NCBI GenBank assembly: GCA_021777555.1
Contig: JAJYDK010000039.1
Coordinates: forward strand, 1-36,801
Reading direction: 5' to 3'
Source of the DNA: Pseudomonadota bacterium
GTDB lineage: Bacteria > Pseudomonadota > Gammaproteobacteria > Steroidobacterales > Steroidobacteraceae
Length of the DNA stretch: 36,801 nt
The notes under the pieces were generated by a model that saw only the letters and a list, made by a program, of their open reading frames with translations, did not search any database and was not told the DNA's origin. Both the position numbers and the translations under genes were made by a program. Below are positions 560 through 28,006 of the stretch, in pieces; position 1 is the first letter of the stretch, and each line of letters opens with the position of its first letter.

Positions 560-2539
560 TCAGCGCAGGGTGAGAGCGAGAATCACGATGAGCAGCGCAC
601 CGATCAGTCCCAGGTAGAAATTCAGGTCCCCTGACTGCAGTGCGCGCAGCCTTCCAGCGAGCCGCCAGACGGCTTTACGGATGGGATCGAACAACGCCGG
701 GCCGAATACATCGGCCACGTCGTGCTCGAATTGCAGCTTGCTGATGAAGTAGGCGACGGCACGGTGCTCGCGTGCCGTATCAGCCGTCGGACGGTAAATG
801 AAGCTATAGAACGTGCGCATCGCGTTGGAGAACGTGAGGGATGTCGTCGCCGAGCGCTCAGGATCTTCCTGCAGCCCTCCATACCAGACCCGTGCGCGCC
901 TGACGGCGTGTCGGCGGCCATTGAGCAACAGTAACAGCGGCAGGAGGGCGATCAGCGGCATGACGATGACGAGCAACGTGGGGGAGATGAAGGCAAATGT
1001 GTCCGTGAGGGGCACGAGCAGCCAGCCAGTGGTCATGGCCCGTGCCGCGTTCGCCCCGAACTGCGTCACATTGGCGCCTTCCAGGCCATGCAGCCACAGC
1101 GGCATCCCGACAGCCGCGGCGAGCACCGCAAGGCCCAGGAGGAGCGCTGCGGAGGCGTAACCCGATCCGATACGCGCAGCTTGCGGCCTGTGCCCATCGC
1201 CGAGCAGTCCGATACCGAATGCCTTAATAAAGGTCGCGAAGGCGATCGCCGCTGTGAGCGCGAGGCCCGCGCCGGCGAGCGCCAGCGTCAACCGCCCGCC
1301 GAGCGTGGCCAGATGGAAGCCCTGGAAGAGCGTCTGAAACGTGAACCACTCGGTCACGAAGCCGATCTGGGGCGGCATGGCCGAGAGACTCATCGCCGCG
1401 AACAGTGTTCCGAGGCCGAAAACCCAGTTCGCTCTGCGCAGCCATCCGCGCTGGGCGAGCCGGTACGTGCCGCCCGCCGAATACACGCCGTCGGCACCGA
1501 CGAACATTCCACCTTTGGCGAGCGCATGTCCCGACAAATGGAGGACGGCCACCGTCCACGCGAGGCCCGCCAGGGCATTTTCCCCGCCGGCCCGGAACAG
1601 GATGCTGGCTCCGATGGCGGTGACCGCGATCGCGGCATTCTCGGCCGAAGAGAACGCAAGCAGGCGCCGCCAATCGTCCTGCTGGAAGGCATACAAGGCC
1701 GCGAGGATCGAGGTCAGCGTACCGATCGTCGTGACGATGATACCGAGGGTAGACAACCCGCTGCCGCTTCCGAGCCAATCCACGAGCGTGCGCGAAAGGG
1801 CGAAAAAGGCCGCGTTCAGCACCACACCGGAGAGGATCGCGCCCGTGGCGCCGCTGCCGTTGCCGTAGGCGCCGGGGAACCACTCGTAGAAGGGCAGCAG
1901 GCCGAGTTTGGCCCCGAAGCCGAAGAGCGCCAGCACCCCGATGACAATGCGTGCGCTTGTGGAGAGTGTGTGTGCGCCGAGCGCGAAGCCGTCAAACGCC
2001 ACGGCGCCGCCGTCGTGTTGCGCCAGCAGCAGCAGCGCGAGCAGGATGGACACGGCGCCGACCTCGAGGAGCGCCAGCATGTAGAGCGTCCGCCGCCCTG
2101 CCTCGAGCGAGGTACTCTCGGAGAGGATCATGACCGCGCCGCCCAAGCTCATCAGTTCCCAGGCGATGAGAAAGGAGTAGGCGTCCTGCACGCCGTATAT
2201 GCCGAGAGCGCCGAGGAGCGAAAGCGCTGCACCGACGAGCCATGCGGGCCGCGCACGCTGGATCGGAGTACAGAGCGCGGCGGCGAGCGCGGCGGGCACC
2301 AGGCCAAAGCCCATCAGCCACAGCGCCTCGGGCGAGTAGTGCAGCCGTACCACCTGATCCGCCAAGGCAACCGGCAAGTTCAGCCAGCCGCCGCCTGCTG
2401 GAAGCGCGCCAAAGGCGCTCCAGAGGCCCGAGGTCACCCCGAGCACGATCAGCCACCGAGCCACACCGGTCATACGCGCCAGCGCGAACAGCAGACCCGC
2501 CGCCCACAGCCAGAATGCCGCAATCAAGAGTTCAGGCAT
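560..2539 (-). CDS. hyfB: HyfB-like proton-antiporter membrane subunit of an Ehr/hydrogenase-4-like complex
   Basis: This 659-aa, highly hydrophobic protein belongs to the NuoL/NuoM/MrpA/HyfB antiporter family, whose members move ions in complex I and membrane-bound hydrogenases. Many membrane segments are visible. The core antiporter domain (about residues 110-420) has the conserved Glu in AWELMSLGG, the lysine of GFGAKLGLLPFYEWFPGA and the SGHALAKGGMF region. The C-terminal part (RTFYSFIYRPTADT onwards) has the amphipathic stretch and final helix typical of HyfB/HycC. The start overlaps the end of the upstream HyfH-HyfI gene by 8 bp, and it is the last gene of a tight six-gene operon. The assignment to the Hyf/Ehr group rests on the neighbours. 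The fold and membrane role are secure, but the ion and electron donor are unknown. Confidence 0.9.
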   Translation of the reverse strand: MPELLIAAFWLWAAGLLFALARMTGVARWLIVLGVTSGLWSAFGALPAGGGWLNLPVALADQVVRLHYSPEALWLMGFGLVPAALAAALCTPIQRARPAWLVGAALSLLGALGIYGVQDAYSFLIAWELMSLGGAVMILSESTSLEAGRRTLYMLALLEVGAVSILLALLLLAQHDGGAVAFDGFALGAHTLSTSARIVIGVLALFGFGAKLGLLPFYEWFPGAYGNGSGATGAILSGVVLNAAFFALSRTLVDWLGSGSGLSTLGIIVTTIGTLTSILAALYAFQQDDWRRLLAFSSAENAAIAVTAIGASILFRAGGENALAGLAWTVAVLHLSGHALAKGGMFVGADGVYSAGGTYRLAQRGWLRRANWVFGLGTLFAAMSLSAMPPQIGFVTEWFTFQTLFQGFHLATLGGRLTLALAGAGLALTAAIAFATFIKAFGIGLLGDGHRPQAARIGSGYASAALLLGLAVLAAAVGMPLWLHGLEGANVTQFGANAARAMTTGWLLVPLTDTFAFISPTLLVIVMPLIALLPLLLLLNGRRHAVRRARVWYGGLQEDPERSATTSLTFSNAMRTFYSFIYRPTADTAREHRAVAYFISKLQFEHDVADVFGPALFDPIRKAVWRLAGRLRALQSGDLNFYLGLIGALLIVILALTLR

Positions 2540-3383
2540 AATCGTCTTCCGGATGTTCGTCGGCCGGACCTATCTGGCCGCCTTGCACGCGCTGCGGCGA
2601 GCGCTGCAGCAGCATCAGTAGCGCATGGATGATGGCCGGTGGATTGGGCGGGCAGCCTGGCAGGAACACATCCACCGGCAGCAGCTCTTCCAGCCCATTG
2701 TCGCAGGCGTAGCCGCCTCCGTTGGTTCCGCCGGAGACCGCACAAGTGCCCGCGGCCATCACGAATCTCGGATCCGGCATCGCCTCATAGGCCTCGAGCA
2801 GGGGTCCGCGCATCGCATAGGTCACCGGTCCCGTGACGAGCAGCAGGTCGGCGAACCGTGGCGAGGGTGTGAAGAACACACCGAAGCGATGCAGGTTGTA
2901 GTACGGGTTGTTGAGCGCCTGTAGCTCCGATTCGCAACCGTTGCAGGAACCGGCATCGACATGCCGAATGTGCAGACTCCGTCCGAAAACGCGCCGGATC
3001 TCGCGCTTTAGCGTCATCCCATCCGTAGAAGCGGCGGCGCGCGTCCAGACCAGATCCTCGCGCCTGCGGCTACCGAATGCCCAGTCTGTAGACGAAGTGA
3101 GCGCGCCCGTCGGACACGCTTCGACACAGAGCTGACAGACGACGCAGCGCCCGTAGTCCACTGTCAGGCGTTGCTTGCTTGCGTCGGGGCAGAAAGTGAT
3201 GGCGCCGGGCAGACAAGTGTCCACACATTCCCGGCAACCCTGCTGGCATTTCGCCTGATCAAAGCGCGGCATGCCGAGATATCCGGCTTGCCCTGGCTCG
3301 GCGTCTTCCCCGCACCAGCGTGTCGTCGCCTTGCCGCGCGCAAGACCGTAGAGTGTCCAGAGCGGGATCACCTTCATAGCCAT
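2532..3383 (-). CDS. hyfI: fused ferredoxin (HyfH-like) and small subunit (HyfI/NuoB-like)
   Basis: This 283-aa electron-transfer subunit of the Hyf/Ehr-like complex has two parts. The N-terminal part carries two [4Fe-4S] motifs: Cys46-50-53-57 (with the unusual first spacing CxxxC) and Cys80-83-86-90 in CVVCQLCVEACPTGA. The C-terminal part is a NuoB/HyfI small-subunit domain with the proximal-cluster ligands Cys147, Cys150 (CNGCE), Cys214 (GTCAVSGG) and Cys244 (PGCPP). In E. coli these are two separate proteins, HyfH and HyfI, so this is a natural fusion. All iron-sulfur ligands are present, unlike the NiFe ligands of the partner large subunit. The gene starts 12 bp after the large-subunit gene and overlaps hyfB by 8 bp. 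Cytoplasmic side of the inner membrane inferred from the family. Confidence 0.92.
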   Translation of the reverse strand: MAMKVIPLWTLYGLARGKATTRWCGEDAEPGQAGYLGMPRFDQAKCQQGCRECVDTCLPGAITFCPDASKQRLTVDYGRCVVCQLCVEACPTGALTSSTDWAFGSRRREDLVWTRAAASTDGMTLKREIRRVFGRSLHIRHVDAGSCNGCESELQALNNPYYNLHRFGVFFTPSPRFADLLLVTGPVTYAMRGPLLEAYEAMPDPRFVMAAGTCAVSGGTNGGGYACDNGLEELLPVDVFLPGCPPNPPAIIHALLMLLQRSPQRVQGGQIGPADEHPEDDYA

Positions 3384-3395
3384 GGACGCTCTCCG

Positions 3396-4898
3396 TCAGC
3401 GATCACAGCCCGCCACCGTCAGACCGAAGCTGGCCTCGTTGATCGCGTAGTCCATCATATTCGTGCCATGCACGGTGTAGGGGAAGACGCGCCAGTTCGA
3501 GAAGCTGGGTGATTTGATCTTGACCCGGGCGAGCCGGCCCGCGGTATCGAGATGCACCGCGTAGTACGCGGTGCCGCGCGGAGTTTCAGCCCAACCGAGC
3601 CCTTCGCCGCCCGGCGGAGGGCGGCAGTCTGCCCGCAGCGAGCCCTCGGGCAGCCCGTCGAGAACGGCGCGGATCAGGGCGATGCTGTGGGTGATCTCCT
3701 CGACGCGCACCTGTTGGCGCGCGTGAGCATCGCAGCCGTCCCGCACCGCGACGCTCAAGGGCAACTCGTCGTAGGCCCCGTAGGGCTGGTCTCGCCGCGA
3801 ATCGCGATCGATTCCCGAAGCCCGCTCCACGGGGCCCGTGGCGCCTTGGTCGAAAGCGAGCTGCCGGTCGAGCACACCGGTGGTGATCAATCGGTCGAGA
3901 TGGCTGCTGGTCGCAGCCAGCTGGTCCGCGTAGCGTCGCAATTCGTGTTCGATTCGCACCAGGTCCTCGGCGAGCGTCAACAGCGTAGGCTCGCGCCGCA
4001 CACCGCCCGGGACAACGAGTCCCCGCAGCAGCCGGCTCCCGCTGATTTGGCAGTTCACCTGCTTGGCGAGCTCCTCGAGGTACTTCCCTTGTGCCTCACC
4101 GACCTTGAGCGTGGTCGTATGACACAGATATCCCAGGTAATGCAGGTGGTTGTAAAGCCGCTCCAGCTCGGCGAGCAACACGCGCAGCCAGGTGGCGCGA
4201 GACGGCACTTCGCACCGTGACGCAGCCTCCAAGGCGTGACAGTAGGCGAGAGCATGCGCCACGCTGCCGACCCCGGAGACGCGTTCGGCGAGAACAGTGC
4301 CGAGTGCCGGTGAGAGTCCTTCGAAGCGCTTCTCCATTCCCCTGTGCTTGAAAAAAAGCCGCGGCTGGTAGTGCAGGATCGCCTCGCCGATGTAATAGAA
4401 GGCGAGCTGAGTCGACTCCAGCACGTCGGCTCGGACCGGTCCGAAGGGCAGCAGCTGCACGTCCTCGCGCGTGGTGCCGGCGAGGTCTGGCATGGGGAGC
4501 GGCACGGGCGTATAGCTCAGGTGCGGCAGTGGTCCGGGCATTAAAGGGGGGCGCTCGGCCGCCGCGCCGGGCAGCAGCACCAGCGGGTCAGGAACGGGCT
4601 GGTCTCGGAAGGCGACGCCGCACAGGTCGGTCGTCTCCCGCTCGTACCAAGACAGGAGCGGTGCGGCCGGCGCGAGGCTCGGTGGTGACTCCGCTCCGGA
4701 GCGGCAGCGCCAGATGTGCGGGGTTTGGCCGCGGCCCGGATGTAGCACATAGCGCAGCTCGGGCGCATCGGAACCCGTAGGGAACCATGCATACATGAAC
4801 TGCATGCGTGCTCCTGCGCCGAGAGCCGCCGCGCAGCGCGCCGAAAGCTCCGCCGGTGCGATGTCTTGCATGGTGACCGCGAGGGGCGCCCCAGTCAT
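3396..4898 (-). CDS. hyfG: HyfG/NuoCD-like large subunit lacking [NiFe] ligands
   Basis: This 500-aa protein has a NuoC-like N-terminal domain (WYERETTDLCGVAF, residues 84-97) followed by a NiFe-hydrogenase large-subunit/NuoD-like domain. The ATG at 4898 overlaps the stop of the upstream HyfF gene (ATGA), which fixes the start. A longer upstream reading in this frame is a shadow of HyfF. In catalytic hydrogenases the L1 motif reads ERxCGxC. Here residues 205-211 are ERVSGVG, so both cysteines are replaced (Ser208, Gly211). The C-terminus ends FGLTVAGCDR, with no DPCxxC L2 motif and no maturation-protease tail. The protein therefore should not bind NiFe, as in complex I NuoD and the Ehr family. 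What it reduces, oxidises or couples to is unknown. Confidence 0.92.
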   Translation of the reverse strand: MTGAPLAVTMQDIAPAELSARCAAALGAGARMQFMYAWFPTGSDAPELRYVLHPGRGQTPHIWRCRSGAESPPSLAPAAPLLSWYERETTDLCGVAFRDQPVPDPLVLLPGAAAERPPLMPGPLPHLSYTPVPLPMPDLAGTTREDVQLLPFGPVRADVLESTQLAFYYIGEAILHYQPRLFFKHRGMEKRFEGLSPALGTVLAERVSGVGSVAHALAYCHALEAASRCEVPSRATWLRVLLAELERLYNHLHYLGYLCHTTTLKVGEAQGKYLEELAKQVNCQISGSRLLRGLVVPGGVRREPTLLTLAEDLVRIEHELRRYADQLAATSSHLDRLITTGVLDRQLAFDQGATGPVERASGIDRDSRRDQPYGAYDELPLSVAVRDGCDAHARQQVRVEEITHSIALIRAVLDGLPEGSLRADCRPPPGGEGLGWAETPRGTAYYAVHLDTAGRLARVKIKSPSFSNWRVFPYTVHGTNMMDYAINEASFGLTVAGCDR

Positions 4899-6379
4899 CG
4901 AGCGTCTCCGCTCAGCTGCGTAGCGATGACCGCAAAATAATGGCTGAGCGTGCTCGGCCACCACAGGCCCATGGCGAGCAGCGGTATGAGTGCCAGCCAC
5001 ATCGGCAGCACGCGCCAGAAGCGATCCGCCGCGTCCGGCTGCCCGCAAGAGGTGGCGGCTGCAACCTGCGGGTTCTCGCCGAAGTACATGGCGCGGAAGT
5101 GGTTGAGGAACCCGATGAAGATCACCACCAGCAGTGCCAGCATGACGAATACCGCCCAGGCGTTGGCACCGGCGAGGCCGGCGCGCAGAATCGTGAACTC
5201 GCTCAAAAACAGTCCGAAGGGCGGTGCGCCGGTGATGGCCACCGCGCCGGCCAACCACAGCACCCCGGCAATGGGCATGACCGAGAGCACGTGATGGATG
5301 CGCCCGAGGCGCTTGCTACGGAAGGCGTGCATGGCATTGCCGGAGCCAAAGAACATCAGCGATTTGTTCAACGAGTGATTGAGCATGTGATAGAGCGCGC
5401 CCGCGACCCCTAACGGTCCGCCGAAACCGAATCCGAGCGTCATGACGCCCATATGCTCGACGCTGGAGTAGGCCATCAGTCGCTTGATGTCCGTCTGTCG
5501 CGTGATGAAGAGTGCAGCGATTGCGAGCGAGAGCGCCCCGATCGCCACGACCACCGTTTGGGGCAGCGCGCCGAGGCGTACCGCGTCGATCACCTGGATG
5601 AAGCGCACGATGCCGATCATTGCGGTGTTGAGCAGCGCACCGGAGAGCATCGCCGAGACCGGCGCCGGACCTTCGCTGTGCGCATCCGGCAGCCAGGTGT
5701 GCATCGGGGCAAGTCCCACCTTGGTGCCAAAGCCGATGAAGACGAGCAAAAAGGCCGTCAGCGCGATCGTCGGGTTCAGATGCGGCGCGACCGAGCGCAG
5801 CGTGCCCCACGTCAGCGCGTAAGTGGGCCCCAGGATGAGGCTGCCGCCCCAGTAGTACAGGATGATCCCGAGTAGCGCGAGGCTGATGCCCGCCGAAACC
5901 ACCACGATATATTTCCAGGCCGCCTCGATGCTCTCGCGCGTTTTCTCGAACCCTACGAGGAAGGTGCTCACCAGCGTGGTGAGCTCGATCGCGATCCAGT
6001 AGACCCCAATGTTGTTCATCAGCGGTCCAAGCAGCATCGTCAGCGCGAATCCGGCGAACAGGGCGTAGAAACGGTGCAGGCGCGCCGGCGTATGGAGCGT
6101 GCGCATGTATCCGATCGAATACAGCGAGGCGAGAAGATACACGGCTGCGACCGACAGGAGCACCCACGCTCCCAGCGGATCGACGATGAGGTAGCCATGC
6201 AGCAGCGTGTAGGGTCCGTGGAGAGCGATCGGCAGAAGCCGCAGTATCGCTACGAAGACGATAACGGAGGCGGCGAGGTTCAGGTATTCGGCGACGCGCG
6301 GCGAGCGGATAAGCTGGCAGCCCACGGCCCCTGCGAGCGGCGAGAGCAGAGCGACGGCCACCACAATCGCTGGACTCAT
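4895..6379 (-). CDS. hyfF: HyfF-like (NuoM/NuoN-type) antiporter membrane subunit
   Basis: This 494-aa multi-pass membrane protein of the proton-antiporter family is the second antiporter-like subunit of the operon. Family hallmarks are YWIAIELTTLVS (conserved Glu), the GTKVGLAPMHTWLPDAHSEG segment with its conserved lysine, PVSAMLSGALLNTA, RLMAYSSVEHMG and the HSLNKSLMFFGSGN segment with another buried lysine. The length matches HyfF. Its ATG overlaps the hyfE stop by 4 bp, and its stop overlaps the HyfG start by 4 bp, so the operon is translationally coupled. No HyfD-like gene is present, so the complex has two large antiporter subunits where E. coli hydrogenase-4 has three. Confidence 0.93.
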   Translation of the reverse strand: MSPAIVVAVALLSPLAGAVGCQLIRSPRVAEYLNLAASVIVFVAILRLLPIALHGPYTLLHGYLIVDPLGAWVLLSVAAVYLLASLYSIGYMRTLHTPARLHRFYALFAGFALTMLLGPLMNNIGVYWIAIELTTLVSTFLVGFEKTRESIEAAWKYIVVVSAGISLALLGIILYYWGGSLILGPTYALTWGTLRSVAPHLNPTIALTAFLLVFIGFGTKVGLAPMHTWLPDAHSEGPAPVSAMLSGALLNTAMIGIVRFIQVIDAVRLGALPQTVVVAIGALSLAIAALFITRQTDIKRLMAYSSVEHMGVMTLGFGFGGPLGVAGALYHMLNHSLNKSLMFFGSGNAMHAFRSKRLGRIHHVLSVMPIAGVLWLAGAVAITGAPPFGLFLSEFTILRAGLAGANAWAVFVMLALLVVIFIGFLNHFRAMYFGENPQVAAATSCGQPDAADRFWRVLPMWLALIPLLAMGLWWPSTLSHYFAVIATQLSGDAR

Positions 6380-7062
6380 CCGACCAGCCTCGTCAGATCC
6401 CGGGTGCTCGTGGTGCCGGCATGCACGGTGAGGTAGCGCACGAGCACACCGAGGCAGGCCACCACCACCAGCAGGTCAAAGAGGATCACCAGCTCGATCA
6501 GCAGTGGCATGCCCGGTACCAGGATCTGAGAGCCGAGGAAGATACCGTTCTCGATCACTAGGAGTCCTAAGATCTGACTCACCACTTCGCTGCGCACCAT
6601 CAGCATGAGAAAACCGATGAGCTTCATTGAAAGCATGGTGGTGAGGGCGAGCACCGCGATGGTACCGGTGAGCCCGAGCGTGGCACCGAGGTGGGCCGAG
6701 ACGACGAATGCGAACACGACCAGCAGCCCGCCCACCACCAGGCTCGAGCTCGGTGCGAGCCGCTCGTGCAGTTCGCGGTCGACCTTGAGACGTCGCGTGA
6801 TGCGAAGCAGCAGGTAGGGCAGCAGCAGACCCCGAAACAGCGCGGTCAGCACTGCGATCCCGTACAGCTCGGGATAACCACCGTAATAGGCGACGGCGGC
6901 CGAGAGGACCGCGATCAGCCAGGATTGCAGTGCGAACGCGCCTAGGTAGGCGTTGAGCCAACGCGAGCCGAGCATCACGAAGGCGAGCAGCAGGCTCGTG
7001 ATGGTGAGCAGGCTGAAGAGCGATCGCGCAAGGGGTGGCAGATGGGCGGCGAACATCATCAT
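6376..7062 (-). CDS. hyfE: HyfE-like membrane subunit
   Basis: This 228-aa hydrophobic protein has about six or seven predicted membrane helices and matches HyfE, the hydrogenase-4 subunit that resembles NuoK in its C-terminal part (MKLIGFLMLMVRSEVVSQILGLLVIENGIFL). I took the first of three consecutive ATG codons, at 7062, which overlaps the stop of HyfC (ATGA). The gene ends in a 4-bp overlap with hyfF. It is expected to form part of the proton path between the quinone-module-like subunit HyfC and the antiporter subunits. Confidence 0.88.
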   Translation of the reverse strand: MMMFAAHLPPLARSLFSLLTITSLLLAFVMLGSRWLNAYLGAFALQSWLIAVLSAAVAYYGGYPELYGIAVLTALFRGLLLPYLLLRITRRLKVDRELHERLAPSSSLVVGGLLVVFAFVVSAHLGATLGLTGTIAVLALTTMLSMKLIGFLMLMVRSEVVSQILGLLVIENGIFLGSQILVPGMPLLIELVILFDLLVVVACLGVLVRYLTVHAGTTSTRDLTRLVG

Positions 7063-8003
7063 CTCAGTTGATTGGCCACGATCGCGAGGATTGCGAGTAC
7101 GAACGAGGCGGCGAGCGGTTCCTGATACCGGTAGTAGCGCAGGCGCGATTGGGCCGTCTCGACCGCCACCACTACCGCGCCGACGACCGAAAACTTCAGA
7201 AACAGCCCGCCGGCCGCGCCGAGCGCCCCGAGGGCCGTTCCCTGCAGCGACAGTCCCCAAGGCAACAGCAGCACATTGCAGAAAATGGTGTAGAGAATGA
7301 ACTGTTTCATCGCCGACGCCCAGCGCAGAAGCGCCAGCAAGGGCCCCGAGTACTCGAGGATGCGTCCCTCCTCGATCATGTACACCTCGATGTGGGTGCT
7401 CGAGTGGATGGGCAACCGATCGGTCTCGACGAGCAGCAGGATGAAAAAGGCCCCGACCAGGAAAAGGTGTGCCGGACCCCAATACACGGCGGACTGGCCG
7501 GCGAGCAGGTGATTGACCACGAAGGGCAACATCGATTTGGCGAGCAGCGTGATGCCGACGAACACGAGGATCAGTGTCGGCTCGGCGAGAATGCCGAGCA
7601 TCACGGAGCGCGCCGCGCCGATGCCGCCGTAGGCGCTGCCGGAGTCGAGTCCCCCGAGCGTGATGAAGAACGAGCCCAGGGTCAAAATGAGACCGCCACC
7701 GAGGATGTCGCCCATGTCCGAAAGCGGGAGCGGGAAGTTCGTCAGGACTGGGATCAGGATCGGCACCGTCAGCATGCAGGTGAAGGCGACGATGGGTGCA
7801 GCCCAGTAGATGAAACTCGCGGTCTCGGGCACCACGAGCTGCTTGTGGAACAGCTTCCACAGGTCGCGGTAGGGCTGGAAGATGCCCGGTCCCTGCGCTC
7901 GCTGCACGCGCTCTTCCCATTGCAGGATGATGCCCTGCAGAAGTGGGGCGATCGCCAGCACGGCGCAAACTTGAGCGATCTGCAGGAAGATCGGACGGGT
8001 CAC
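7059..8003 (-). CDS. hyfC: HyfC-like (NuoH-type) membrane anchor subunit, first gene of the operon
   Basis: This 314-aa membrane protein of the NuoH/HyfC/HycD family links the peripheral arm to the membrane arm. Typical segments are GIILQWEERVQRAQGPGIFQPYRDLWKLF near the N-terminus, ETDRLPIHSSTHIEVYMIEEGRILEYSGP (the acidic loop) and SAMKQFILYTIF. The start is GTG at 8003. An in-frame stop lies five codons upstream and no other start is available, although the ribosome binding site is weak. About 160 nt of leader separates it from a fluoride aptamer on the same strand, so the whole operon is probably induced by fluoride. The operon lacks HyfA, HyfD, HyfJ and any formate dehydrogenase. Confidence 0.92.
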   Translation of the reverse strand: MTRPIFLQIAQVCAVLAIAPLLQGIILQWEERVQRAQGPGIFQPYRDLWKLFHKQLVVPETASFIYWAAPIVAFTCMLTVPILIPVLTNFPLPLSDMGDILGGGLILTLGSFFITLGGLDSGSAYGGIGAARSVMLGILAEPTLILVFVGITLLAKSMLPFVVNHLLAGQSAVYWGPAHLFLVGAFFILLLVETDRLPIHSSTHIEVYMIEEGRILEYSGPLLALLRWASAMKQFILYTIFCNVLLLPWGLSLQGTALGALGAAGGLFLKFSVVGAVVVAVETAQSRLRYYRYQEPLAASFVLAILAIVANQLR

Positions 8004-8160
8004 CTGGCTGCCTTTTCAGGCATGTGCCGCAGGTGGCTTGCCTGGAAGCGGGTTCGCGACCTAAGACACAGCAGGAACTGCGTGCGCAGTCTAGGCGCCG
8101 GACTCGGGACTCGCTCAGGTCTCATGCGCTACCACTCCACCGCTCCTACAACGGTTCGGG
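8004..8160 (-). promoter_or_regulatory. leader between fluoride aptamer and hyfC-like gene
   Basis: This untranslated stretch is the expected expression platform of the minus-strand fluoride riboswitch. I see no convincing ORF. No clear terminator with a U-tract is evident, so control may act on translation or through a structure I cannot fold by eye. Confidence 0.45.
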
Positions 8161-8215
8161 TAGGCATCATCAGCCGTAGGCGGCAGTTCTTGTTACGGGA
8201 GGCATGCCATCTCCC
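8161..8215 (-). promoter_or_regulatory. fluoride riboswitch (crcB RNA) of the Hyf/Ehr-like operon
   Basis: Read on the minus strand, the element has the full fluoride-aptamer signature. The 5' hairpin is GGGAGATGGCATGCCTCCC, followed by a linker, the stem GCCG..CGGC, then CTGATGATGCCTA. GGCAT of the first loop can form the pseudoknot with ATGCC of the 3' strand. It is nearly identical in its conserved positions to the Pseudomonas syringae aptamer as I recall it. It lies just downstream of a good promoter and about 160 nt before the hyfC-like start. Confidence 0.93.
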
Positions 8216-8223
8216 TGCGATTC

Positions 8224-8304: not shown

Positions 8305-8317
8305 CTCTATCTTGGAT

Positions 8318-8370
8318 GGGAGATGGCATGCCTCCCCTAAATGTCGCGACAGCGGCTGATGATGCCTGCA
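8318..8370 (+). promoter_or_regulatory. fluoride riboswitch (crcB RNA) upstream of the P-loop ATPase
   Basis: The plus strand shows GGGAGATGGCATGCCTCCC, a linker with the hairpin TGTC-GC-GACA, and CTGATGATGCCTG, the same conserved framework and GGCAT/ATGCC pseudoknot as the other two aptamers. It faces the minus-strand copy head to head, 102 bp apart. A short hairpin CGGGA-GTGT-TCCCG (8372-8385) follows and may be part of the expression platform before the ribosome binding site AGGTGG. Confidence 0.92.
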
Positions 8371-8408
8371 GCGGGAGTGTTCCCGGGCGAAAGCGAGCAG
8401 GTGGACTC

Positions 8409-9245
8409 ATGCACCCCCATTTATCGGAATGGACCACGCAACTGACGCGGCGGCTGTTGCAGGGCGAGCACTTGACGCTGTGCGGTCCGCGTGGCAGCGG
8501 CAAGTCCACGGTGCTCTTGCAGGTGCAATCGCGGTTAGGAGCCGCCGCTATCCCCTGCGCATACTCGATTTCCACGGCGACTCTCGATGACATCACTCAG
8601 ACCTTGGAGCGTGCCTACCCAGGGGTGGATACGCGTGAGGTCGGCCGTCGCACCGCCCGCTTTCGGCTGTGGAATGCCGCGGATCGCCGGGCGGGTGTAC
8701 TGCTGCTCGATCACTTCCACTGCAACGGCAGCGCAATGGTGTCCTTCCTGCGGAGACTTCACGGCAAGATCGCGGGAGTGTTGACGGCAGTTGACGTCGA
8801 CGATGAGAGAGAGCGCAACCGGATGCGACCGTGGCGCTATGGCGCGATGTCCGTGCGCATGCCACTGGCAACGGCGATGCAGCTTCGTCGTCTGCTGGAC
8901 GAGCGGTGCAGGTGTCTCCGGTTGCCGCCATTCGAGGCGCAGGCCGCGCACAAGCTGGTCGAAGCGGCACGCGGCCGGCCAGGTTGGATCGTGATGTGCA
9001 CTGACCTTGCGCGGGATTCCCGCTATTGGTGCAAGCACGGGCCCTTGGTGAGCGTGATGTGCGTTGATGCCGAAGCCGCCGTGCGCTACGAGGCGCTCGG
9101 CATGCTTCGCCCGATTTCGGCGGCCCACGTGGAAGAGTTCCAGCGCGGCAATGTTGCAGGGGCGCCCGCACCGTCGGACCGGGCACGCCGGTTCAGCGGC
9201 ATCAGCAGTCGCCCGCGGTCGGTGGATCCGACGCATCGGGGTTGA
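8409..9245 (+). CDS. fluoride-riboswitch-linked P-loop ATPase, unknown function
   Basis: This 278-aa protein has a clear Walker A motif, GPRGSGKS (residues 26-33), and a likely Walker B in GVLLLDHF (about residue 95). No signal peptide or membrane helix is apparent. The C-terminal half has a WIVMCTDLARDSRYW region and I do not recognise a named family. It resembles small AAA/STAND-type ATPases in general layout. The start is ATG 8409, preceded by AGGTGG at 4 nt. In-frame upstream codons run into the riboswitch and are unlikely to be used. The fluoride aptamer 40 nt upstream indicates a role in fluoride stress. The 3' end overlaps the convergent DUF190 gene by 44 bp. Confidence 0.75.
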   Translation: MHPHLSEWTTQLTRRLLQGEHLTLCGPRGSGKSTVLLQVQSRLGAAAIPCAYSISTATLDDITQTLERAYPGVDTREVGRRTARFRLWNAADRRAGVLLLDHFHCNGSAMVSFLRRLHGKIAGVLTAVDVDDERERNRMRPWRYGAMSVRMPLATAMQLRRLLDERCRCLRLPPFEAQAAHKLVEAARGRPGWIVMCTDLARDSRYWCKHGPLVSVMCVDAEAAVRYEALGMLRPISAAHVEEFQRGNVAGAPAPSDRARRFSGISSRPRSVDPTHRG

Positions 9246-9552
9246 TCACTCCGAAGGACGCCGGTGTGTAGGCATAAAACAGGCGGATCTTCTCCTGATT
9301 CAGCAGGTCGAGAAGTTTCTGAGCTTCCTCCTGTGTCGCAATGAACTCCACTTCCACCGTGAGGTTGCCGGCGAGCTCGAAGAATCGCGCTTCGCGTAAT
9401 ACGTGGTGCCGGCCGAAGCCCGCCATCGCCGTGAACGCAGAGCCGCCGCGCATACCGAGCTTGTTGCCGTGTTCGAGCAGCCATTCCCACACGAGCCGGC
9501 CGTGATGGCGATGATTTTCGTGAACGTAGAAGCGAAAGAATGACCCTTGCAT
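9202..9552 (-). CDS. single-domain DUF190 protein
   Basis: This 116-aa protein spans one complete DUF190 domain: FFRFYVHENHRHHGRLVWEWLLEHGNKLGMRGGSAF aligns with the family pattern of a first strand, a helix and GxxGgTa. AGFGRHHVLREARFFEL and LTVEVEFIATQEEAQKLLDLL follow. DUF190 proteins are PII-like, ferredoxin-fold small proteins often encoded next to crcB, but their molecular role is not established. A three-domain DUF190 protein is encoded 3 kb away in the crcB operon. This copy is on the opposite strand, with no obvious aptamer of its own, and overlaps the 3' end of the P-loop ATPase gene. Confidence 0.8.
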   Translation of the reverse strand: MQGSFFRFYVHENHRHHGRLVWEWLLEHGNKLGMRGGSAFTAMAGFGRHHVLREARFFELAGNLTVEVEFIATQEEAQKLLDLLNQEKIRLFYAYTPASFGVINPDASDPPTAGDC

Positions 9553-11151: not shown

Positions 11152-11268
11152 ATGTGTGTGCCGAGATGAAGTTCTGGTGGCGACGGGACCGGCGGCTCGC
11201 GAATCGCTGTGATAACGGATGATGGCTTCCGCTTTTGCCCGGCTTTTCATGTGGAGGACACCGTCGCT

Positions 11269-11748
11269 GTGTCAAATTCGGCCATCAGTTTAGATGCCCG
11301 CGGTGACACTGTTCCTGACGGCACCGCGCCGCCGTCCCGCGCCCGGCTGCTGCCTCGCCTGGATATCCGGGAGGTTACCGCAATCTTCGCCGGTGGCGCG
11401 ATCGGGACGCTGCTTCGAGCCTGGTTGGCGGTGGCTTTCCCGCACTCGCCGACCAGCTGGCCGTGGCCCACGTTCGTGGTCAACATCGTAGCTGCGTTCC
11501 TGCTAGGCTATTTTGTGACTCGGCTGCAAGAGCGGTTGCCTTTGTCGAGCTATCGACGGCCCCTGCTCGGTACCGGCCTTTGCGGCGGGTTGTCGACTTT
11601 CTCGACGATGCAGGTCGAGTTGTTGAAAATGATCGATGCACGCGCGTATGTTCTGGCGGATCTCTACGCGGCGGCGAGCATCGTCTGCGGGTTCGCTGCC
11701 ATTTATGTCGCGACGGCGGTGTCGCGAAGGGTTTGGGTGGGCGCGTGA
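11269..11748 (+). CDS. crcB: CrcB/Fluc fluoride channel subunit 1
   Basis: This 159-aa membrane protein of the CrcB/Fluc family exports fluoride passively across the inner membrane as a dual-topology dimer. Family motifs are [26 protein letters not shown] with its pore Asn, and [15 protein letters not shown] with the phenylalanine-box region. Four membrane helices fit. The start is uncertain: GTG 11269 has GGAGGA ten bases upstream and leaves an N-terminal extension of about 35 residues before the first helix, longer than usual. Its stop overlaps the next crcB gene by 4 bp. Two adjacent non-identical crcB genes usually encode a heterodimer. Confidence 0.93.
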
Positions 11749-12110
11749 CGGTGCTGGTCTGGGTGGGCGTGGTGCTCATCGGCGGTGCGGGATCAGTGCT
11801 GCGCTTTGTGGTCGACGGTGTGGTGGCGTCGCGTCGGAAGCGAGACTTCCCCTACGGAACGATGGTCATCAACATCAGCGGCGCGCTCGTCCTTGGCCTC
11901 TTGACGGGCTTGGCGCTCAGTGGACGGGCGTCGCTCCTCGCTGGCACCGCTGCGGTCGGGTCCTATACGACTTTCTCGACATGGATGTTTGAATCAGAGC
12001 GGCTCGCCGAAGAGCGCCGGTCCTGGACCGCTGCGGTGAACGTAGTACTCAGTCTCGTTCTCGGCGTCGCGGCAGCGGCCGTCGGGAGGGTGATCGGAGC
12101 TGATTTGTGA
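11745..12110 (+). CDS. crcB: CrcB/Fluc fluoride channel subunit 2
   Basis: This 121-aa second Fluc subunit starts at a GTG that overlaps the stop of the first crcB gene (GTGA). Motifs are [29 protein letters not shown] and [16 protein letters not shown]. The two subunits differ enough that they probably pair as a heterodimer with each in one fixed orientation. Coupled translation would give equal amounts. The stop in turn overlaps the DUF190 gene by 4 bp. Confidence 0.93.
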
Positions 12111-13183
12111 ACGAGGACTGCCTCAAACTGACGTGCTATTTTGGCGAACGCCACCGCAGCGCCGGCCGGTTTGTCGCGGATCGCCTATTGGACATCTACG
12201 GTCGCAACGAGATTGCCTCGAGCATCATGCTGCGCGGTGTGGAGGGGTTCGGGCTGAAGCATCATTTGCGCAGCGATAGTTCGCTGACGCTGTCGGAGGA
12301 TCTGCCCGCGGTCGCGATTGCCGTGGATTCGCGAGCGCGCATCGAATCAATCCTCGACGAAGTCGCCGGCATCGAGAACGTCGGCCTGGTGACGCTAGAG
12401 CGGGCGCGACTGATACAAGGTGACATCGGGCCGATTTCACTGCCAGAGAGTCTGCACGAAGCAACCAAGCTGACCGTTTACCTCGGGCGTCAAGAACGCA
12501 CCTACCGGGTACCGGCCTACGTTGGCGTGTGCGAGCTGCTGCACCGTCGAGGCATCGCCGGAGCCACGGTGCTGCTCGGGGTCGATGGCACGCGCCACGG
12601 CCAGCGTGAACGCGCCCAGTTTTTCGGCCGCAACGCCGAGGTGCCGATGATGGTCATGGCGATTGGCTCAGGCCCCAGCATCACCCGAGTCTTGCCCGAA
12701 TTGGGTGCGCTGCTGCGCACTCCACTGATCAGCCTGGAGCGGGTGCGTATCTGCAAGCGCGACGGGGAGCTGCTGGAGCGGCCGCACGAGCTGCCCGGAA
12801 CCGACCAACACGGAATGGCGTTGTGGCAGAAGCTGAGCATCATCACCTCGGCGGCGGCCCAGCACGGAGGACAGCCGGTCTACCGTGCGATCACCCGGCA
12901 GCTTCGTGCGACCGGATCAAGCGGGACGACAAGCCTTCGCGGGATTTGGGGCTTTCACGGCGATCACGCTCCACATGGGGATCGGCCGCTGCAGGTGGCA
13001 CGGCACGTGCCCACGCTTACAATCGTGATCGACACACCGGAGCGCACGGCCGCGGCGTTCCCGATTATCGATGCGCTGACTGCCGAACGTGGCTTGATCA
13101 TCAGCGAGATGGTGCCCGCCGTGCACGCGCGCTCCAGCGATCGTCGCCGTGGCGGACTGCGATTGGCCAGCCACCACTACTAG
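12107..13183 (+). CDS. three-domain DUF190 protein
   Basis: This 358-aa protein is made of three DUF190 domains, at about residues 5-105 (LKLTCYFGERHR...VGLVTLERARLI), 118-220 (TKLTVYLGRQER...PLISLERVRICKRDG) and 240-345 (KLSIITSAAAQH...GLIISEMVPAV). Each has the GxxG-turn and GFG/GxHG pattern of the family. The GTG start overlaps the upstream crcB stop (GTGA), so it is translationally tied to the fluoride channel. DUF190 proteins resemble PII signalling proteins in fold; a regulatory or ligand-sensing role in fluoride export is an inference. Confidence 0.9.
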   Translation: MNEDCLKLTCYFGERHRSAGRFVADRLLDIYGRNEIASSIMLRGVEGFGLKHHLRSDSSLTLSEDLPAVAIAVDSRARIESILDEVAGIENVGLVTLERARLIQGDIGPISLPESLHEATKLTVYLGRQERTYRVPAYVGVCELLHRRGIAGATVLLGVDGTRHGQRERAQFFGRNAEVPMMVMAIGSGPSITRVLPELGALLRTPLISLERVRICKRDGELLERPHELPGTDQHGMALWQKLSIITSAAAQHGGQPVYRAITRQLRATGSSGTTSLRGIWGFHGDHAPHGDRPLQVARHVPTLTIVIDTPERTAAAFPIIDALTAERGLIISEMVPAVHARSSDRRRGGLRLASHHY

Positions 13184-21552: not shown

Positions 21553-21808
21553 CCGTCGGAATGCGTGTTGCCATGCATTCAATGGGCATGACAGGGAGCG
21601 TAGAGGCCGGAAGTGGCACGAGGAAGACGCGGAAGCAAGATAGAAGGTCGCGGCACCGCCGCGCCGCCAAGCCTTTGTCTGCACATCGGTTTGCGCGGCA
21701 CCACGGCGCAGGAGGGGAGTGCCGCGGCTTGCGGCAACCGCCTATGATTCAAGCAGTTCCCGGGTGCCGCCTACGCTGCGGCGCGCTCGGATGCTCCTGG
21801 GGTTCGCC

Positions 21809-23770
21809 ATGAGCCGGGATCGCGAGGGGCGGTTCCGGCCTCGCGTCGGACCGCCGCGAGACCGGGGTAAGGCAACCCGCCCACGACTCATTGCCCGGGT
21901 GATTCGCGCCGCGTCGCGTTCAGGGAAGTCACTGGGGTACCGTGCGGCACGAGCCCGCCCCGGCACTCGGCTCGGGCGAGGGCACGCGGCCGCACAACTC
22001 ACGGGCCGGGCGCTCGGACCTCGGTCGCGGCGGGCAATCGTCAAGTTCCGCATCGTCAGACACGCCGGCATCCACCCTTCGGCTCTCAGGGAGAATCTCG
22101 GCTACATCGAGCGGGAAGTTGTCCAGCCGGATGGTCGTCGCGCTCACCTCGAGGCGGAGGATCGCGAACGGATCGATGCCGAATCCTTCGCCCGCCGGAT
22201 CGAGAATGACCGCCATCACTTCAAGATCATCGTATCGCCCGAGGATGCCACGCAGATCGGGGACCTCAAGGCCTATACGCGTGAGCTGATGGCGCAGGTG
22301 GAACGGGATCTCGGGACGCGGCTCGAGTGGGTGGCGACAGATCACTGGGACACCGACAATCCCCACATCCACATCCTGCTGCGCGGCAAGGACGAGGCCG
22401 GCGAGGATCTCGTTATCGCCGGCAACTACATCGCCCACGGTATGCGCCATCGCGCCGCAGAGCTCGCCACGCGCTGGCTCGGGCCGCGGACGGAACGGGA
22501 GATCCGGGAGAGTTTGACACGGGAGGTCGAACAGGAACGGTGGACGAGTCTGGATCAGGCTCTGCAGCGGAGCGCACAGGACAGTCGCTTGGACTTGGCG
22601 GTTCTTTCCGACGCTGTCCGGGACCGAGAGCATCGGGCGCTCCTGATCGGGCGCTTGCAGCGTCTCGGGGAACTTGGCCTCGCCGAGCGCCTCGCGCCGG
22701 ACCGCTGGCAACTCTCACCCGATTTTGAGCGGCTGCTGCGGGCCATGGGTGAGCGGGGCGACATCATCCGCCGCATGCAGCGCGCGCTCGGGGACAAGCG
22801 CCGCGAACTCGGTGCCTTCGGCAATACGGAGGCTCCCGAGTCCATCACCGGCCGCCTGGCCGCGAAGGGCATCATCGAGCCCGTATACGACCGCGAATAC
22901 CTCATCGTCGACGGTATCGACGGCCGGGCCTACCACATCGCGGCGCACTCTCGAGTCGACCTCCGCGAACTGCCGGTCGGAGCGATCGTCACCGTGACGA
23001 ACGGGCCAAAGCCGCGTCCAGCCGATCGGACGATCGCGGAGCACGCGCGCGATGGTATCTACCGAACCTCCGAGCACCTCGCGGTAGCGCGAGACGATGT
23101 TCGGCCAGGGCACGATCCCGAGGCATTTGTCGAGGCGCATGTGCGGCGACTGGAAGCGTTGCGTCGTGCTTGCATCGTCGAGCGACTGGAGGAGGGCGTC
23201 TGGCGCGTGCCCAAGGACCTGGTCGAACGCGGGCGAGCGTATGACGCCCGGCGCTCCGGAGGCATCCAGGTTGAGGTCAAGTCCTACTTTCCGATCGAGC
23301 GGCAAGCACGGGCAGTCGGGGCGACCTGGTTGGATCGTCTTCTGGTGGATCAACGCGATGACCTGTCGGCGACGGGATTCGGCGCCGAGGTGCGCGCGGC
23401 GCTCGCCGAGCGGGAGGGTTTCCTTGTCCGAGAAGGCTTGGCCCAGCGTCGCAGGCAGCGGATTACTCTCGCACCAAACCTTCTCGCGACGCTGACGGCG
23501 CGCGAACTCGCGAGTGCCGCTGAAAAGATTCAGACCGAGACCGGGCTCGTCTATCACCCGGTCGTCGACGGTGAACCCGTCTCGGGTGTCCTCCGGCGAT
23601 CCGTGGTTCTGGCAGGCGGGCGATCCGCAATGCTGGACGACGGTGTGGGGTTCAGCCTGGTTCCGTGGCGGCCTGTGATCGAAGGACGCGTTGGCCAGGT
23701 CTTAACGGCGGTCACGCGAGGCGACCACATCTCATGGACTCTCTCGCGCCAGCGCGGCATGTCGCGTTAG
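21809..23770 (+). CDS. DUF3363 relaxase/mobilisation nuclease (VirD2-like)
   Basis: This 653-aa relaxase would nick oriT and pilot the strand into the recipient. The N-terminal nuclease part (about residues 70-230) has FKIIVSPEDA and WVATDHWDTDNPHIHILLRG, the metal-binding HxDxxxPHxH motif. YIEREVVQP lies upstream and may carry the nucleophilic tyrosine. The large C-terminal DUF3363 part includes LAAKGIIEPVYDREYLIVDGIDGRAYH and YHPVVDGEPVSGVLRRSV. ATG 21809 (MSRDREGRFRPRVG) matches the usual family start, since such proteins begin with a basic, glycine/arginine-rich stretch. The frame stays open back to 21719. This relaxase type defines the element class. Confidence 0.93.
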   Translation: MSRDREGRFRPRVGPPRDRGKATRPRLIARVIRAASRSGKSLGYRAARARPGTRLGRGHAAAQLTGRALGPRSRRAIVKFRIVRHAGIHPSALRENLGYIEREVVQPDGRRAHLEAEDRERIDAESFARRIENDRHHFKIIVSPEDATQIGDLKAYTRELMAQVERDLGTRLEWVATDHWDTDNPHIHILLRGKDEAGEDLVIAGNYIAHGMRHRAAELATRWLGPRTEREIRESLTREVEQERWTSLDQALQRSAQDSRLDLAVLSDAVRDREHRALLIGRLQRLGELGLAERLAPDRWQLSPDFERLLRAMGERGDIIRRMQRALGDKRRELGAFGNTEAPESITGRLAAKGIIEPVYDREYLIVDGIDGRAYHIAAHSRVDLRELPVGAIVTVTNGPKPRPADRTIAEHARDGIYRTSEHLAVARDDVRPGHDPEAFVEAHVRRLEALRRACIVERLEEGVWRVPKDLVERGRAYDARRSGGIQVEVKSYFPIERQARAVGATWLDRLLVDQRDDLSATGFGAEVRAALAEREGFLVREGLAQRRRQRITLAPNLLATLTARELASAAEKIQTETGLVYHPVVDGEPVSGVLRRSVVLAGGRSAMLDDGVGFSLVPWRPVIEGRVGQVLTAVTRGDHISWTLSRQRGMSR

Positions 23771-23958
23771 CGTTGTGCATTCTCGTCAGCCCACACGGCG
23801 GCAAGGCGCGAACTTCTGTGCCGAAGGACGACCTGCCGGAGAAGCTCGCACAGGATATGGCATAGGCCGCAAACGACACTATTGCGGACCTCCGAGCGCG
23901 GCTCGCAAGCAGAGTTGTCCATCGGTAAAGGCACTGGTCTTCCTGCGGAGGTGTCTCC

Positions 23959-24340
23959 GTGAAGCCGCTTTACGATTCGATGCTCGACACGAATCTGCTG
24001 GGGCGTACCTTCGCCGGCCCGACCTTTGCGGCGTGGCGAAAGGTGGCGAAAATCCTCGATGCCGCGCCCCTCAATCAGGACGCGCACGCGCTCCATCGGG
24101 AACTCACGGGACGCGATAGCGCGCCGCGTGAGGCCTTCCGCGAGGCGTATCTCATCAAGCCCCAGCCGAGCAGGCGGGACGCAGTCTCGCGCTCGCTCGG
24201 CGCCTCCTCGACGACTCGGAGGCGAAGTTGTGAGTTGTTCCGCGCCCGCCCATCGCGCGGTCACCCCCTCAGCCCCGGCGACCGTCAGCAGTTCGAGCGG
24301 GTACTCATCGACTGCAGCCCGCGGGGTGGTTCCGCACCGC
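23959..24340 (+). pseudogene. decayed terminase-like gene
   Basis: A GTG at 23959, with GGAGG upstream, opens a frame whose first 65 residues (KPLYDSMLDTNLLGRTFAGPTFAAWRKVAKILDAAPLN; REAYLIKP) resemble the start of phage terminase-like proteins found in conjugative elements. Beyond REAYLIKP the expected GG(R/T) Walker-type segment is scrambled among frames (SRAGGTQSRARS in frame +2). A later LSPGDRQQFERVLI may match the conserved D-R-Q-Q-A-R-V segment. The ATPase core is lost. The family call is by eye and moderately uncertain. Confidence 0.5.
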
Positions 24341-24352
24341 CGCGGCGGCGCG

Positions 24353-24516
24353 ATGTCTATCGAAGATTTACCGGTGACCTTCGCCGTGATCGCGAGCGCT
24401 TGGCGGGAAGCGGATCGCCTCAAGGCCGAACACGACGAGAACTGCTCCCCCGGGTGACGGTCTACGTCGTCGACGCCGACGGGGTGTCGATCTACAGGGC
24501 GCTGACAACTCGGTGA
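24353..24516 (+). pseudogene. small frameshifted accessory gene
   Basis: One frame reads MSIEDLPVTFAVIASAWREADRLKAEHDENC then stops. The continuing frame reads RVTVYVVDADGVSIYRALTTR to a stop at 24516. Insertion of one base in the run of five C at about 24446-24450 would join them into a 54-aa protein. This may be a recent loss or a sequencing error. Function unknown. Confidence 0.45.
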
Positions 24517-24520
24517 CTGC

Positions 24521-24538
24521 CGTTGCGCATGCGCAACG
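24521..24538. promoter_or_regulatory. 18-bp perfect palindrome upstream of the Ntn-hydrolase gene
   Basis: CGTTGCGCATGCGCAACG is a perfect inverted repeat, 83 bp before the start of the proteasome-like gene. It marks the left edge of the cargo genes and could be an operator or the hairpin of a terminator for the genes before it. Confidence 0.5.
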
Positions 24539-24620
24539 CACCGTCTGCTCGGGCTTTTGCCTCGCGGTGCAACGCGCTACACTGCCGGCCAATAACAACG
24601 ACGAACTCTGCGGGGAACCA

Positions 24621-25430: not shown

Positions 25431-25608
25431 CCCGATTGACCTGTGGAACCCCGGTCCGTGGTTGGGAGACGCGTCGTCCGCGCAGGTAACGCTATGGCAG
25501 GCCGAGAACCACTGGGCCGCGCTGTGCCCGCCGCCCGTAGCGTTCCCGGTCGGCTGCGTTGCGCCGGCCGAGCATGATGAGCAGCCGAACCGGCCAGACC
25601 CACTCTGA
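25420..25608 (+). CDS. 62-aa small protein coupled to the Ntn-hydrolase
   Basis: The ORF starts 11 bp before the end of the Ntn-hydrolase gene and encodes a tryptophan- and proline-rich peptide (LWNPGPW; LWQAENHWAALCPPP). No domain recognised. The overlap suggests co-translation with the putative peptidase, and it could be a partner or substrate. Support is positional only. Confidence 0.5.
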   Translation: MPRDPIDLWNPGPWLGDASSAQVTLWQAENHWAALCPPPVAFPVGCVAPAEHDEQPNRPDPL

Positions 25609-25648
25609 ACCGAAGCCCCGCGCGAAGCGCGGAGATGGAGCCGCCGCG

Positions 25649-25927
25649 ATGGCCTCCCCGTTACAAAAAGAGTTCGAATATTACCTAGCCCATCAGGCTG
25701 AGATGGTCTCCCGGTACAATGGAAAGTTCGTCGTGCTTAAGGACGGCGACGTCGTTGGCGTCTACGACTCCGAGTTGGCCGCGGTCACCGAGACTCAGAA
25801 GACACACCGCCTCGGTACCTTCCTAGTACAGAAGGTGGAGCCGGGCGAAGGGGCTTATACACAGACTTTCCATTCTCGTGTAGCATTCCTGGCCGAGAAT
25901 GCAGAAGTCCAGCAGCTTCACCGTTAG
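25649..25927 (+). CDS. DUF5678-like protein
   Basis: This 92-aa protein contains YNGKFVVLKDGDVVGVYDSELAAVTETQKTHRLGTFLVQKVEPGE, which fits the short DUF5678 fold (W/F-V-v-l-d-g-x-V-v-g-x-d...). The start is ATG 25649. The end overlaps the following aspartic-protease gene by 29 bp. I recall DUF5678 genes beside retropepsin-like genes in other bacteria, so the two probably form a functional pair; the role is unknown. Confidence 0.7.
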   Translation: MASPLQKEFEYYLAHQAEMVSRYNGKFVVLKDGDVVGVYDSELAAVTETQKTHRLGTFLVQKVEPGEGAYTQTFHSRVAFLAENAEVQQLHR

Positions 25928-26453: not shown

Positions 26454-26504
26454 GCCTCAGGCGTGTACAATGTTGCTTATGAAAAGATCTGAACAATAAA
26501 GACG

Positions 26505-27974: not shown

Positions 27975-28006
27975 CCTGCGTACCCTGAGCCCGAGGGGCT
28001 AACGAA

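Follow-up and report, generated by a model that had tools for sequence, protein, structure and literature searches.

A putative fluoride-induced, non-hydrogenase relative of hydrogenase-4 and complex I with a predicted role in redox-driven ion pumping

The report of the crcB motif (Weinberg 2010, PMC2864571) places the motif upstream of "formate hydrogen lyase" genes. The link is repeated in PMC8004769, and a 2024 review (PMC11139923) explains it as fermentative formate oxidation. The Ehr complexes are characterized in PMC10284858 and PMC6349859 as lacking the CxxC motifs and being of unknown function. For the MBS and MBX complexes of Pyrococcus, PMC7684303 describes derivation from group 4 hydrogenases, the loss of NiFe catalysis and an antiporter-type membrane arm; in MBS, two of the four NiFe cysteines remain, the loop is shorter by three residues and the proximal cluster has three cysteines. 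Here we describe a six-gene operon resembling hydrogenase-4 in a 36,801-nucleotide stretch of DNA (the window), which is contig JAJYDK010000039.1 of a Steroidobacteraceae genome (G000:C26 in our numbering; assembly of 4.02 Mb in 117 contigs, 97.4% complete). We regard it as nearly certain that the encoded complex is not a hydrogenase and is dedicated to fluoride stress. From sequence comparisons we further propose, with a probability of roughly 60%, that it is a fluoride-induced relative of hydrogenase-4 and complex I that would act as a redox-driven pump of protons (or cations) and restore the gradient after hydrogen fluoride (HF) entry.

The operon occupies positions 8003 to 560 of the minus strand and comprises six overlapping or nearly overlapping genes in the order C-E-F-G-I-B. 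An initial annotation of this DNA, made from the sequence alone, had described such an operon, and its Pfam and NCBIfam matches bear this out:

7059..8003, minus strand: hyfC-like gene (NuoH family), first gene and most conserved subunit; 314 residues; PF00146, E value 9.7e-35; best solved match, formate hydrogenlyase (FHL) subunit 4
6376..7062, minus strand: hyfE-like gene; 228 residues; NCBIfam hydrogenase 4 membrane subunit, E value 1.9e-14, under its cut-off; no Pfam match
4895..6379, minus strand: hyfF-like antiporter-type subunit; 494 residues; PF00361, E value 2.8e-53; best solved match, the membrane-bound hydrogenase (MBH)
3396..4898, minus strand: hyfG-like large subunit of the fused NuoC/NuoD type, without NiFe ligands; 500 residues; PF00346, PF00374 and PF00329
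2532..3383, minus strand: small subunit, a ferredoxin (two 4Fe-4S motifs, NuoI/HyfH type) fused to NuoB/HyfI; 283 residues; PF12838 and PF01058
560..2539, minus strand: hyfB-like antiporter-type subunit, last gene; 659 residues; PF00361, E value 6.7e-28

These matches place the subunits in the superfamily of complex I and group 4 hydrogenases (HyfE by NCBIfam alone). Among the matches listed, none of the subunits reached the curated cut-off of the NCBIfam hydrogenase-4, FHL or Nuo models. The folds of the membrane and peripheral subunits are those of FHL-1 and FHL-2 (Hyc and Hyf), and of the five subunits searched against solved structures, four had an FHL subunit as their best match, HyfF being the exception; the fused small subunit matched the solved MbhJ/HycG and MbhN/NuoI. 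The overall subunit set and these structural matches favor a genuine FHL or hydrogenase-4, consuming protons as H2, as does the naming of formate hydrogen lyase among fluoride-riboswitch genes in Weinberg 2010 and the 2024 review cited above.

The large subunit speaks strongly against such an enzyme. Relatives were collected as the best 80 of 204 loci that had passed confirmation with patterns derived from the protein of the window; they are 58 to 100% identical to it (L004 is a 100% match to the window) and, judged by record titles and the genera therein, come from Gammaproteobacteria, Betaproteobacteria, Alphaproteobacteria and Acidobacteriota. L023, identical to L022, was left out of the protein alignments and is counted among the loci. 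The gene order C-E-F-G-I-B was not violated in any of the 80 loci, and all six genes are present, whole or partial, in 67 of them. In an alignment that also included NuoCD, the DRVCGIC motif of E. coli HycE and HyfG corresponded to ERVSGVG in the HyfG of the window, the replacement of ERxCGxC that the initial annotation had pointed out, and DPCYSCTDR corresponded to GLTVAGCDR, gapless up to the final arginine, which is the end of the protein. Across 80 large subunits (the window and 79 relatives), no cysteine was found at any of the four [NiFe] ligand columns, which read S/A/T/V, G/D/A, T/S and G; 79 of the 80 rows have letters at all four columns, and L005 ends before the last two. The C-terminal CxxC had likewise been called missing, and this stands with one small correction: a near-invariant cysteine, C498, remains one residue from the lost last (second C-terminal) ligand in all 79 rows that reach it (the more distant L166 has alanine there). 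Nor were the four NiFe cysteines found elsewhere in HyfG, where a CxxC occurred in 4 of the 80 sequences, near residue 425 and away from the old NiFe site. E161, the equivalent of MbhL E21, which has been termed the key proton-reduction residue of MBH, was present in all 80. The AlphaFold model of HyfG had a mean predicted local distance difference test (pLDDT) score of 83.4, and its top PDB match was FHL subunit 5 (template modeling score of 0.84); the loops of the old NiFe site (residues 147 to 163 and 492 to 500) had a pLDDT below 50, and we therefore do not argue the pocket from this model. Separately, E. coli K-12 HyfG (L114 9988-11655) showed a 16-residue gap around the RASG motif relative to the other 16 rows of the alignment.

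HypD is required for assembly of the Fe(CN)2CO unit of the [NiFe] site. A search of 28 carrier genomes did not find it in 17, of which 11 are records not marked as metagenome-assembled genomes (MAGs); some of the 28 are MAGs and may be incomplete. Many host genomes seem unable to build a NiFe site. A tblastn search of the 80 loci (3.1 to 21.6 kb each, covering the operons and their flanks; E value of 1e-5) with E. coli queries, which recover their own E. coli genes, gave no match to FdhF, HycI, HycH, HyfJ, HypA, HypB, NuoE or NuoF. The HyfH, HyfD, HyfA and HycB queries matched the operon's own genes, as expected; outside the operon, HyfD matched in three loci (in two of them within operons of the clade F2 introduced below) and HyfH in one, a cut-off small subunit in L058.

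In a maximum-likelihood tree of 68 large subunits, the window's clade, termed F1 (26 rows), received support of 100/100, and a second fluoride-linked clade, F2 (3 rows), also received 100/100; F1 and F2 were joined at 98/91, this join and that between hydrogenases and Nuo being the subject of a long-branch warning from the tree program. Sister to F1 plus F2 was a clade of 32 Ehr-type sequences (100/100), labeled Ehr here for their lack of NiFe ligands and their relatedness rather than by a named reference. The six hydrogenase rows stood apart. An [NiFe] hydrogenase or FHL was ruled out on the combined evidence of the absent ligand cysteines, the gaps in HypD, the lack of FdhF and a maturation protease at the loci, and this tree position, and the claim that the complex cannot be a hydrogenase is strongly supported; we consider a proton-consuming FHL hardly credible. 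Beyond the missing NiFe site, FdhF and protease, the complex also differs from FHL in having no C-terminal extension of the large subunit and in the fusion of HyfH to HyfI. On the same grounds, the "formate hydrogenlyase" of the fluoride-riboswitch literature is probably this complex.

The initial annotation had assigned the complex to the Ehr group. Part of this assignment holds, in that both have six Hyf-like subunits, lack NiFe ligands and carry an RVSG-type motif in place of RVCG, and the Ehr-type clade is the nearest in the tree. The window's clade lies beside the Ehr clade, however, and not inside it, and ordinary Ehr membership was rejected as too broad. Gene order is B-C-E-F-G-I in Ehr-type loci (29 of 32 in full), as against C-E-F-G-I-B in the fluoride-linked clade; a ferredoxin domain is fused to the small subunit in the latter and absent in the former; and the large subunit ends in EASFGLTxAGCDR in the fluoride-linked clade as against a sequence of the DFPxxNKSxNxSYSGxDL type, the NKSxN signature being our own observation in all 32 non-fluoride rows. 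The complex is a new, strictly fluoride-linked variant of the Ehr complexes. The genome of the window also holds an Ehr-type operon (G000:C109; L117 3712-10862) in the order B-C-E-F-G-I, which lacks both the ferredoxin domain and a riboswitch. Among 13 genomes of the genus, several of them incomplete, HyfC of the fluoride-linked operon (88 to 100% identity) was found in 4 and an Ehr-like HyfC (34 to 39%) in 10; within the genus, the fluoride-linked operon looks like the accessory one.

The link to fluoride rests on riboswitches of family RF01734, for which a search of the whole genome gave three matches, all in the window's contig:

8154..8223, minus strand: fluoride riboswitch before the operon; cmscan score of 48.1 bits (gathering threshold 34), E value 1.8e-10; ends 150 nucleotides before the hyfC start
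8310..8375, plus strand: second fluoride riboswitch, divergent from the first, before the gene for a small AAA ATPase; 36.7 bits
10535..10605, plus strand: third fluoride riboswitch, upstream of crcB; 51.4 bits

RF01734 upstream of the transcription unit makes the operon a member of the fluoride riboswitch regulon. A riboswitch was detected 90 to 538 nucleotides upstream of hyfC in all 65 relatives that could be tested, that is, those with the hyfC start on the contig (15 of the 80 loci lack it). The covariance model used, R1, was built from the window and seven loci among the 80, and those seven had been found with Rfam's model alone, which placed a riboswitch just upstream in 7 of the 7 loci tried. 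The 65 include L058, whose match is weak (22 bits), and L023. Given that the best 80 loci were sampled, the rule applies to relatives at about 58% identity or more. With E values up to 1 allowed, R1 gave no match in 34 control loci (32 Ehr-type and two E. coli hydrogenase loci); 27 of the 32 Ehr-type loci extend 600 bases or more beyond the first gene on its upstream side, and the other five are truncated so near the start of the operon that a riboswitch could have been lost. Across 398 sampled genomes of the phylum, none of 72 group-4-like large subunits (E value of 2.1e-42 or better, outside the window) had a riboswitch within 30 kb among the riboswitch places listed, 14 of the 72 being in genomes that hold one; the search of this sample used stricter filters, which lose weak matches, and 21 of the 72 are also among the 34 controls. 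The control by fluoride claimed initially was borne out far more strongly than could then be known. The divergent pair of riboswitches, facing the operon and the AAA ATPase gene, was also seen in several relatives (e.g., L006, L007, L010 and L014).

F1 members in three genomes (G434, G508 and G593) also have a riboswitch 3.2 to 3.4 kb upstream of the large subunit. F2 operons with their own riboswitches lie directly downstream of F1 operons in L012 (7779+), L015 (4914+) and L017 (14545+), and about 4.6 kb downstream in L037 (18852+). In two further genomes, the F2 large subunit is preceded by a riboswitch at the same distance of 3.2 to 3.4 kb; one of these riboswitches (in G537) scored 24.5 bits, under Rfam's cut-off, and was missed by R1. 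F2 large subunits carry ERFNG, ERLSG or ERFSG and end in FGLSxAE(N/C)DR. A plasmid search for F2 gave nothing above about 35% identity among the best 20 of 241 records.

Two features of a redox-driven ion pump of the complex I superfamily, a continuous Fe-S wire and the Glu and Lys residues of the ion path, were found in the complex. The complete set of Fe-S cysteines noted initially in the small subunit was confirmed across the clade, all 12 cysteines (three [4Fe-4S] clusters) being present in 77 of 77 small subunits. The path residues were equally constant: E132, K220, K299 and K339 of HyfF in 72 of 72 sequences, E128, K211 and K342 of HyfB in 70 of 70, and the glutamates of HyfC in 65 of 65, and the HyfF and HyfB residues align with those of MBH and MBX. 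These alignments exclude rows shorter than 85% of the window protein (4 HyfC, 1 HyfE, 6 HyfF and 7 HyfB) and matches below 45% identity, including the cut-off small subunit of L058. The conservation of wire and path, combined with the loss of the metal site and the strict fluoride linkage, suggests an ion pump that is driven by redox chemistry and induced by fluoride, and we consider ion pumping of this kind probable.

The same membrane subunits would also suit a Mrp-like cation/proton antiporter, redox-free or redox-gated, in which the peripheral arm is structural. Both antiporter-type subunits keep all their path residues, conservation is highest in HyfC (80% median identity) and near its lowest in the large subunit (60%), and F2 loses a ferredoxin cluster. 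In addition, Na+/H+ antiporters are given in the 2024 review as the next-commonest fluoride-riboswitch class after exporters (PMC11139923). The 12 cysteines conserved in every small subunit would, however, be hard to explain in a structural arm, and we think an antiporter improbable. A sulfane-sulfur reductase like archaeal MBS, which would act from an open-coordinated proximal cluster, was a further candidate, since MBS sets the precedent of lost NiFe ligands with use of that cluster (PMC7684303). The MBS signature was not seen, and MBS-like catalysis was rejected: in place of two remaining NiFe cysteines and a shortened loop, the complex has none of the four, a proximal-cluster motif, CNGC, with all four cysteines and the hydrogenase spacing found in HycG, and the retained E161 of the large subunit. 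Such a reductase is very improbable.

Subunit conservation raised a further explanation, that the complex itself moves fluoride or HF, the energy of electron transfer directly expelling fluoride, HF or its proton through an unusually conserved HyfC/HyfE heel. Among 54 diverged relatives, the median identity was 80% for HyfC, 72% for HyfE and 60% for HyfG, compared with 50%, 50% and 44% in 24 Ehr loci, a less steep contrast between two sets that differ in overall divergence; in the closest Ehr loci (e.g., L118, L126, L161, L174 and L175), HyfC was above HyfG by about 12 to 15 points. The steeper contrast would allow the membrane heel a function specific to the clade, and the presence of the riboswitch in all 65 testable relatives also agrees with a direct part in handling fluoride. 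If this were true, the complex would represent the first case of fluoride export driven by respiration instead of a passive channel or antiporter, and the chemistry at the vacated NiFe site would be unlike that of known acceptors (H+, quinone and sulfane). We know of no fluoride-binding motif in this fold, however, and among 50 loci of at least 15 kb, crcB is present in 23 and a CLC gene (clc) in 8, so that export is already served there. We judge an electron-driven extruder quite unlikely.

The direction of electron flow was also considered. In the reverse direction, the proton gradient would drive electrons uphill, and enzymes damaged by fluoride or oxidants would be repaired with the resulting reduced ferredoxin or cluster electrons. 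The ferredoxin domain, fully conserved in F1 and absent in Ehr, suggests that a low-potential carrier is special to the clade, and MutS-like genes and, at some loci, dehydratase genes are found nearby. Reverse use would, however, spend the very gradient that fluoride dissipates, and no ferredoxin-dependent partner gene was identified; we regard it as unlikely.

For the redox-driven pump, we suggest the following sequence of events. Fluoride bound to the riboswitch would induce the operon. Electrons from a low-potential carrier, such as ferredoxin or flavodoxin, would enter at both clusters of the fused ferredoxin and go on to the proximal cluster and then to a diffusible acceptor in the chamber formed by HyfC, HyfG and HyfI at the former NiFe site. 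Many of the named hosts are aerobes, which makes quinone our first guess for this acceptor, though a tentative one that we would sooner doubt than defend. The reaction would drive proton export via HyfC/HyfE, HyfF and HyfB, compensate for the acid load and the drop in proton-motive force that HF entry brings about, and sustain the voltage needed for fluoride export by CrcB. According to the 2024 review, the cytoplasm is acidified when HF enters and fluoride export depends on the proton-motive force (PMC11139923), and proton export paid for by ferredoxin-level electrons fits this need. Whether rescue of pH and proton-motive force is the purpose of the complex is, in our estimate, an even call. 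The part in proton balance suggested in the initial annotation is plausible and agrees with the explanation we prefer.

Several observations weigh against this proposal. HypD is present in 11 of the 28 carrier genomes, including that of the window. A scan of the leader in the window recognized no terminator or promoter, and the leader fold shows no expression platform, so the direction of the switch is taken from its riboswitch class. The complex shares homology to NuoCD, NuoB, NuoH and NuoLMN with complex I but differs in having no NuoE/F nearby and no tandem CC in the small subunit, and its large subunit lacks the two Nqo4 residues, H38 and Y87, that contact the complex I quinone headgroup, having mostly L/V at position 160 and G/A at 209; quinone thus cannot be read from the sequence, and a complex I-like quinone site was rejected. 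Among the 80 loci, the search for the NADH module NuoE/F as donor was negative, and no donor gene was identified. Finally, F2 small subunits (L017 and two other genomes) lack four ferredoxin cysteines, namely I to III in the first motif and IV in the second. Under the ligand pattern usual for such ferredoxins, these losses remove one cluster and leave the other whole. The proximal cluster of L017, one of the three F2 members, also lacks a cysteine. Redox function need not, therefore, be essential to every fluoride-linked member.

The remark in the initial annotation that FHL-like genes are listed with fluoride riboswitches proved correct in print, as PMC2864571 and PMC11139923 confirm. No account of the complex as a non-hydrogenase was seen among the matches listed by an open-licence full-text search judged by titles and the beginnings of abstracts. 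The association of FHL with fluoride is known already; what appears to be new is the correction, together with the clade and how strict the link is. With this correction, an odd metabolic link would become coherent as a matter of energy and pH balance under HF stress, and the Ehr-type complexes, of unknown function, would gain a first member with a likely inducer, making function testable.

Like other members of the fluoride riboswitch regulon, the operon has RF01734 in front and crcB, eno, mutS, DUF190 and CLC genes as neighbors; the best-known members export fluoride or replace inhibited enzymes, whereas this operon is predicted to encode a redox-driven membrane complex. Reading frames in the flanks were grouped into clusters with BLAST, and one or two representatives per cluster were checked with Pfam. 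Besides crcB and CLC, the 50 long loci contained enolase (27), DUF190 (20), mutS (19) and dynamin-like (13) genes; at least one of eno, crcB, mutS, DUF190 and clc was present in 43 and none in 7. In the window, the following were found:

8412..9245, plus strand: small AAA ATPase gene, 277 residues in this reading; PF13401, E value 1.9e-6
9202..9552, minus strand: DUF190 gene (PII-like, COG1993); PF02641
10779..11222, plus strand: truncated ilvD (dihydroxy-acid dehydratase, N-terminal part only), between the third riboswitch and crcB
11209..11748, plus strand: crcB, fluoride channel subunit; NCBIfam fluoride efflux transporter CrcB, 204 bits; true start probably internal
11463..12110, plus strand: frame with a second crcB, domain at residues 103 to 208; PF02537, E value 2.4e-22
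12107..13183, plus strand: protein with three DUF190 stretches; PF02641
36..112: tRNA-Arg at the contig edge

The ilvD gene may be a present or past fluoride-regulated gene. In L017, a long frame with an ilvD-like start (2312-4426) was recognized by eye near the operon. Conjugation-like frames (a relaxase and parts of a type IV secretion system) were likewise recognized by eye downstream in the window, at about 21700 to 36800, and an integrative or plasmid element may carry the fluoride island. A search for a second tRNA-Arg 3' end as the boundary of a mobile element found only the tRNA itself. A Burkholderia multivorans plasmid carries, in a stretch of 25 kb, MutS twice, a dynamin, an inorganic diphosphatase, DUF190, the operon and crcB, the operon being annotated there as parts of NADH-quinone oxidoreductase. 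In the window, the two DUF190 genes (9202-9552 and 12107-13183) accompany the crcB pair.

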